Below are positions 4,326 to 63,542 of a stretch of DNA of 64,000 nt, piece after piece. The stretch is from contig MHBH01000020.1 of the NCBI GenBank assembly GCA_001804805.1, positions 1 through 64,000 of the forward strand. Direction: 5' to 3'. This DNA comes from Lentisphaerae bacterium GWF2_49_21 (GTDB lineage: Bacteria; Verrucomicrobiota; Lentisphaeria; Victivallales; GWF2-50-93). Below the pieces are notes generated by a model, which saw only the letters and a program-made list of their open reading frames with translations, had not been told where the DNA came from and made no database searches. The first letter of the stretch is position 1. Each line of letters starts with the position of its first letter. The position numbers and the translations under genes were made by a program.

Positions 4326-4350
4326 GTTGGAGTTCACAGCTTTAGCGTGT
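4326..4350 (-). repeat. Dispersed intergenic repeat (25-nt core), inverted copy
   Basis: Reads gttggagttcacagctttag and on to cgtgt. Its reverse complement matches 24 of 25 bases with the copies at 29748-29772 and 63195-63219. Lies in the spacer between hsdR and the RhuM-Fic gene. Confidence 0.75.
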
Positions 4351-24934: not shown

Positions 24935-25017
24935 AATAAATTATTCCTCCATTAAAATCCGGTAGGTTTATCCTATATTGTATTGTCCTTTTCCATTATT
25001 TCAAAAATTCTATCAGT

Positions 25018-25123
25018 AAATATTTACATCTAATAAATCATAAAAAGAGTGATTTCGCATTTTAGAGGTCCCCTTTATTTTTAGTACGGATTAAGTAAAC
25101 GACATAGTTTACTGAATACGTAC
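25018..25123 (+). repeat. Palindrome-bearing intergenic element, copy 1 (upstream of argG)
   Basis: Runs from aaatatttacatctaataaa to ccgcgt-less tail ending aatacgtac and contains agtaaacgacatagtttact, an inverted repeat (agtaaac/gtttact) around gacata, plus the palindrome gtaaatatttac at its left edge. Its reverse complement occurs at 63409-63499. This copy carries an extra segment of about 15 bases including gaggtcccctt. It lies between the divergent zwf and argG genes. Confidence 0.85.
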
Positions 25124-25148
25124 TGTGAAAGAAAGGGGCTATTCCGGC

Positions 25149-25176
25149 TTGCTAAAAATGAACTTAATATTATTCT
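25149..25176 (+). promoter_or_regulatory. Candidate argG promoter
   Basis: TTGCTA at 25149-25154 and TATTCT at 25171-25176 with 16 bases between, 51 bases before the argG start and 25 bases after the palindromic element. Pattern match only. Confidence 0.3.
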
Positions 25177-25227
25177 ATTATCTCTTGAGGAAAATCATTC
25201 AATCCATCGATCAAACGGAGACATATC

Positions 25228-29745: not shown

Positions 29746-29772
29746 GGACACGCTGAAGCTGTGAACTCCAAC
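29746..29772 (+). repeat. Dispersed 27-nt repeat
   Basis: Starts ggacacgctgaagctgtgaa and is identical over 27 bases to 63193-63219; a 24 of 25 match lies in reverse complement at 4326-4350. Confidence 0.85.
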
Positions 29773-29892
29773 GAAGAAGCCACGCCATAGCTTCTTAGCG
29801 ATGGCAGGTCATCCAATCATCCAGCAAACCACTCATCCAAGCGTCCTATGCTTTAGAGGTCCCCTTGATTAGGTTATTATCCAGATTAGTAG

Positions 29893-63054: not shown

Positions 63055-63192
63055 TCAATATAGAATCTTTTATTGGTTTGAGGCAATTTCAAAATTGCCT
63101 CTTTTGAGCTGATTTCAAAAGTTGGAGTGCGCTGTCCCGACATCGCTGAGCCGGGATCTTAGACTTTAGCGTGTGTAACCTGTTGAATACCA

Positions 63193-63219
63193 GGACACGC
63201 TGAAGCTGTGAACTCCAAC
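63193..63219 (+). repeat. Dispersed 27-nt repeat
   Basis: Identical over 27 bases to 29746-29772, same orientation. Confidence 0.85.
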
Positions 63220-63408
63220 AAGCGTTATTCCCGCAACAAACGTTTTTCGTATTTTTGAAATCAGCTCGGGTTGTCAAGCATAACATTATTTCGAACTGCG
63301 GTAAATACAAACTTCGCGAGGACGGTTTGCAGAGTTCCAGGTTCCATCAGGCATGCGGCCTCGCATTATCATCAATAAAATGTAATTTATCAGACAAGAG
63401 ACTGAAAG

Positions 63409-63499
63409 GTACGTATTCAGTAAACTATGTCGTTTACTTAATCCGTACTAAAATAAAATGCAAAATCACTGTTTTATGATTTATTAGATGTAAATATTT
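63409..63499 (-). repeat. Palindrome-bearing intergenic element, copy 2, inverted (upstream of GH95)
   Basis: Reverse complement of 25018-25123 apart from a missing segment of about 15 bases and a few substitutions. Contains agtaaactatgtcgtttact, the same inverted repeat read from the other strand. Confidence 0.85.
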
Positions 63500-63529
63500 G
63501 CTGAAGGACATACTTCAGTGAATATTTAC
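63490..63529. promoter_or_regulatory. Long imperfect hairpin before the GH95 start
   Basis: gtaaatatttgctgaag (63490-63506) and cttcagtgaatatttac (63513-63529) pair at 15 of 17 positions around gacata, the same centre as the palindrome inside the neighbouring element. It ends 13 bases before the ATG, where a protein or structure could control expression. Confidence 0.5.
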
Positions 63530-63542
63530 TTTGAAAATCCAT

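Follow-up and report, generated by a model that had tools for sequence, protein, structure and literature searches.

A palindromic element upstream of argG and of a GH95-like gene in a Lentisphaerae genome is probably a miniature transposon with IS66-family ends

Judged by structural criteria, the palindromic element that recurs upstream of argG and of a GH95-like gene in Lentisphaerae bacterium GWF2_49_21 qualifies as an IS66-family MITE. We hold with high confidence, on the strength of sequence comparison, that both copies in the window (the whole stretch of 64,000 nucleotides analysed here) are MITEs with IS66-family ends that were moved by an IS66-type transposase. This reading is the most likely one because the element combines 8-bp target duplications with ends matching those of IS66 elements. 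As a MITE it would be a non-autonomous miniature transposon of ~120 bp (roughly 80–260 bp in the family), for which a full-length relative would provide an IS66-type DDE transposase. That transposase would recognise the terminal repeats and insert the element, from which the 8-bp target duplication would result. The positions of the window copies 5' of argG and GH95 would then have no regulatory meaning. A preliminary description had considered both a shared operator and a small mobile repeat; the latter is borne out by the presence of the element at no fewer than ~60 loci, mostly outside promoter gaps, and by the 8-bp duplications.

The two window stretches form a genuine near-identical reverse-complement pair, inverted relative to each other, with arms 25074-25123 and 63409-63458 (50 nt, 96% complementary) and a second arm pair 25013-25045 and 63472-63504 (33 nt, 97%). 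Both lie 5' of a plus-strand gene, as had been stated, and the extra bases described in copy 1 are indeed present when it is compared with other copies. The pair stands, but its ends had been drawn too narrowly: aligned copies place the limits at 25013-25123 and 63409-63529. The parts are as follows.

25013..25123, plus strand: MITE copy 1, A end to B end, with an A hairpin that lacks its outer left half (alignment with other copies)
25013..25027, plus strand: inner arm of the A hairpin left over in copy 1, TCAGTAAATATTTAC (alignment with other copies)
~25064..25075, plus strand: bases peculiar to copy 1, AGAGGTCCCC and neighbours (alignment with other copies)
25084..25123, plus strand: B hairpin of copy 1, with the IS66-like terminal repeat as its outer end, GTACGTATTCAGTAAACTATGTC on the minus strand
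25148..25181, plus strand: argG promoter-like stretch CTTGCTAAAAATGAACTTAATATTATTCTATTA, 3' of the element and outside it (by eye)
63409..63529, minus strand: MITE copy 2, complete at 121 bp and running from A to B on this strand
63409..63448, minus strand: B hairpin of copy 2
63490..63529, minus strand: A hairpin of copy 2, with the IS66-like terminal repeat GTAAATATTCACTGAAGTATGTC as its outer end
63401..63408, no strand: left flank of copy 2, ACTGAAAG, sharing 5 of 8 bases with the right flank TTTGAAAA (63530-63537)

The flanks ACTGAAAG and TTTGAAAA are at best a decayed target duplication. The sequence AGAGGTCCCC, at 25064 in copy 1, was seen again at 29855 and near G000:C32:142719 (G000 being the window's genome) and is possibly another short repeat.

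In the full unit of ~123 bp, an A+T-rich core separates two 40-bp hairpins that are inverted relative to each other. From A to B, a complete unit reads GTAAATATTCACTGAAG-TATGTC-CTTCAGTGAATATTTAC, the core ATCTAATAAATCATAAAAAGAGTGATTTTGCATTTTATTTTTA, then GTACGGATTAAGTAAAC-GACATA-GTTTACTGAATACGTAC; read from outside to inside, both 40-bp ends have the loop TATGTC. Complete copies start with GTA and finish with TAC and are bounded by the terminal inverted repeats GTAAATATTCACTGAAGTATGTC and GTACGTATTCAGTAAACTATGTC. Each end comprises a terminal repeat of 22–23 bp, behind which the first 17 bases of that repeat recur in inverted orientation, and it is because of this added copy that the MITE end forms a hairpin. 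These hairpins are strong, with z of -3.6 and -6.0 on the A-to-B strand and energies far under those of shuffles. The AGTAAAC...GTTTACT palindrome for which an operator role had been suggested therefore exists as the stem of the terminal hairpin; the role itself did not hold up (see below). Rfam gave nothing at the element, its sole match being a tRNA. In a set of A-type hairpins of 46–49 bp the loop is swapped for a mostly G+C-rich palindrome (e.g. TCCGCCGCGGCGGA), resulting in much longer stems (G000:C14:24763, C32:84798, C33:115792, C17:181232, C29:25676 and C61:21950).

The window's genome (5.9 Mb, 91 contigs) was searched for further copies, a check that had been proposed, and at least ~60 loci were found, a census to be read as a lower bound. 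With copy 1 as query at least 52 matches were obtained (E <= 10), with the A end and a long core at least 76, and the 16-base end pattern GTAMRTATTCASTRAA with 1 mismatch gave 110 matches versus 1 for the reversed control, far above the chance level. The 61 loci that were read out comprise two-hairpin copies, copies with one side truncated, and single hairpins. Two-hairpin copies measure 84–208 bp when complete and have short or long cores; single hairpins are mostly 38–49 bp. Across the family, the element is short (80–260 bp), gene-less and dispersed. It was found in all 8 genomes of this Lentisphaerae family that were searched (5 genera), while 33 genomes from other families of the same order yielded one weak match and a plasmid collection none. 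Of the family members, G004 corresponds to the Lentisphaerae MAG AM-lipid-01-D10_bin-0339, as judged from a protein match at 100%, which agrees with the phylum of the window. Another palindromic repeat is dispersed as well (GTTGGAGTTCACAGCTT..., within arms resembling GAGCTGATTTCAAAA...TTTTTGAAATCAGCTC). It has 3 copies in the window (4326-4350, 29746-29778 and 63193-63221, the last in a larger unit at ~63083-63265) and also occurs inside locus L223 (1055-1317); 10 core matches were present in 60 fetched loci, and one copy is nested in a G006 MITE.

Flanking target duplications, which had also been proposed as a check, were found as exact 8-bp direct repeats around 7 of ~31 complete copies, these 7 coming from six genomes:

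CAACGAAG, G000:C73
CACCTGAG, G003:C203
CATTTATC, G001:C78
TAATCTCC, G002:C93
CAATGGCT, G005:C254
CTCGGGCT, G005:C103
ATTGCGAG, G006:C44

The chance expectation is ~0.0005 (31 x 4^-8), with a binomial chance of ~5e-28. Against the MITE reading, in the window's genome an exact duplication accompanies just 1 of the 13 copies that are complete or nearly so; four near-identical 123-bp copies have none, and no clear duplication flanks either window copy. Target duplications of fixed length are a mark of DDE transposition. Since the element combines 8-bp duplications with ends starting GTA, the search turned to IS66.

A search of the family with DDE_Tnp_IS66 revealed a complete IS of 2313 bp in G004, flanked by the exact duplication GTGAATCT. 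Its genes specify a 579-aa TnpC, which matches DDE_Tnp_IS66 at E 3e-49, and a DUF6788 protein. Its ends GTACGTATTCAGTGAAGTATGT and GTAAATATTCAGTAAACTATGT agree with the B and A ends of the MITE at 20/22 and 19/22 positions, respectively, and similarity between IS and MITE is limited to these terminal ~22 bp. Two distant relatives of the G004 IS, at 43% in a WOR-3 MAG and at 31% in G063 (same class), carry terminal sequences of that type, GTAAGTATTCAGTRAA and GTAAATATTCGGTGAAGACGT. Because the G004 IS and both distant relatives share this type of end, the 22–23-bp MITE end is best regarded as the terminal repeat of an IS66 subgroup. The IS66 elements of G000 and G004 have 8-bp duplications, as do ISPpa5a and ISPpa7 (PMC3281130). 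A TnpC fragment with 83% identity is present in G003, a member of the window's genus; as a point against the reading, the window's own assembly yielded no relative at E 1e-30 and no full-length partner IS. Mobilisation of the element by an IS66-type transposase appears probable. L097 and L103 are two further IS66-type elements, of G000 and G004; they have exact 8-bp duplications, and their GTAA ends differ in sequence from those above. In G063, a Y1-like ORF lies beside the IS66 relative (L246, ~2924).

The single hairpins are presumably eroded copies: in 12 of 27, AT or a longer piece of the core is still attached on the inside, as expected of truncated copies. An 8-bp duplication flanks 0 of 40 single hairpins, which counts against the MITE reading. 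A second layer could be added to that reading, namely that single hairpins are functional, REP-like 3'-end elements, kept by selection behind stop codons and with an effect on the ends of mRNAs or on how translation terminates. We regard this as possible, if on balance doubtful. In its favour, 10 of 22 copies lie 0–6 bp from a stop codon compared with 0.75 expected and a maximum of 6 in 20000 random draws (copies free of overlap with flanking gene calls, gaps of >=60 bp, random placement in the same gaps), although the gene calls are crude; none of these 22 lies within 6 bp of a start. Further copies supply the stop codon themselves, at distances of -4 and -15, through TAA and TGA of the end sequence. 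Compensated changes occur in 6 of 17 stem pairs (13 cells versus 2.5 in shuffles), which fits selection on the hairpin; however, template-switch repair of palindromes could also account for them. E. coli REPs at most 15 nt from a stop codon are reported, from earlier work, to stall ribosomes (PMC12306157). On the other hand, the stop-codon excess is weaker at loci of the sampled relatives (4 of 19 versus 1.0, null maximum 7, gaps of >=30 bp), and a terminator scan of both window copies gave no terminator-like site. Retention behind stop codons of a hairpin that is tolerated or useful is our preferred reading of this excess, site-directed insertion a possible one. The bolder version, in which an IS66-type transposon end evolved into a REP-like hairpin family whose single hairpins are placed or kept a few bases from stops without target duplication and act on message 3' ends, we consider unlikely.

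We consider it very unlikely that the element is itself of REP/BIME/REPIN type and owes its dispersal to a Y1 (RAYT) transposase with single-stranded hairpins as substrate. Paired inverted and single hairpins, intergenic positions near stop codons and 20 Y1_Tnp matches (IS200/RAYT-type) in the genome would suit this explanation. However, none of these 20 Y1 loci has hairpins of the element nearby. Y1 transposition is not known to make 8-bp duplications, and a Y1/RAYT partner is inapplicable to the duplication-bearing copies. Moreover, the definition of REP/REPIN includes a GTAG (or CGTC) tag (PMC3733652), whereas the ends of the element, GTAAAT/GTACG, are fully paired and no unpaired tag of either kind was found at the hairpin end.

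The preliminary description had further proposed an operator of a regulon, with a LacI- or AraC-type regulator binding the palindrome 5' of argG, GH95 and other genes. The palindromic stem agrees with this, as does the location of both window copies in divergent intergenic gaps, between argG and a minus-strand G6PD gene and between the GH95-like gene (Pfam Glyco_hyd_65N_2 match) and a minus-strand gene for a SpoIIE/HAMP protein. However, argG orthologues in the congeners G001, G002 and G003 (86–93% identical proteins) have no element upstream. The stretch CTTGCTAAAAATGAACTTAATATTATTCTATTA is near-identical 5' of argG in G001 and partially matched in G002 and G003 (by eye), and since it lies downstream of the element and recurs in these element-free congeners, the element sits 5' of a probable argG promoter. 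In G001 and G003 the element is also absent upstream of the GH95-like gene, but because the upstream neighbours look different there, these two loci were kept out of the strict empty-site comparison. Distances to genes, a further check that had been suggested, place most copies outside promoter gaps: 6 of 55 lie in divergent gaps, a depletion relative to the control gaps, of which 27 of 97 are divergent (p = 0.015). A sigma-70 scan found no promoter-like site inside either window copy. The GH95-like gene has its first ATG 13 bp past the end of copy 2, which may interfere with the leader. With ~60 or more copies, stop codons close by and 8-bp duplications in addition, a regulon operator can practically be dismissed. 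The false regulon lead is thereby removed, the palindrome 5' of argG and GH95 being hitch-hiking DNA.

A literature search with partial coverage and without ISfinder brought up neither a hairpin-ended IS66 MITE nor, for the phylum Lentisphaerae, any such repeat. MITECca01 of Cardinium and MITEAba12 are the nearest published analogues within that coverage. MITECca01 resembles the element in having inverted repeats termed palindromic and being mostly intergenic, but is ~240 bp long and has its source in ISCca4 and not in that genome's IS66 element (PMC9769881). MITEAba12 is gene-less, ~112 bp long and shares its ends with a resident IS; it also supplies stop codons, and only 40% of its copies keep target duplications (PMC6382973). 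Unlike the present element, it is mobilised by ISAba12, has 9-bp duplications and a different IS relationship (PMC6382973). The 2313-bp IS66 element of G004 has the terminal 22 bp (20/22, 19/22), GTA ends and 8-bp duplication in common with the MITE and differs in carrying genes and in lacking the inverted tip copy behind the terminal repeat. REP, BIME and REPIN sequences (PMC3116915, PMC3733652) are comparable in occurring as single and paired inverted hairpins, intergenic and near or overlapping stop codons; the element departs from them in its 8-bp duplications and in having neither a GTAG or CGTC tag nor, in the window's genome, a linked Y1 gene. That its single hairpins abut stop codons like E. 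coli REPs suggests that REP-like 3'-end hairpins could come from an unrelated transposon. In conclusion, the comparison points to a bacterial palindromic repeat family that is tied to a DDE (IS66) transposon and not to a Y1/RAYT transposase.
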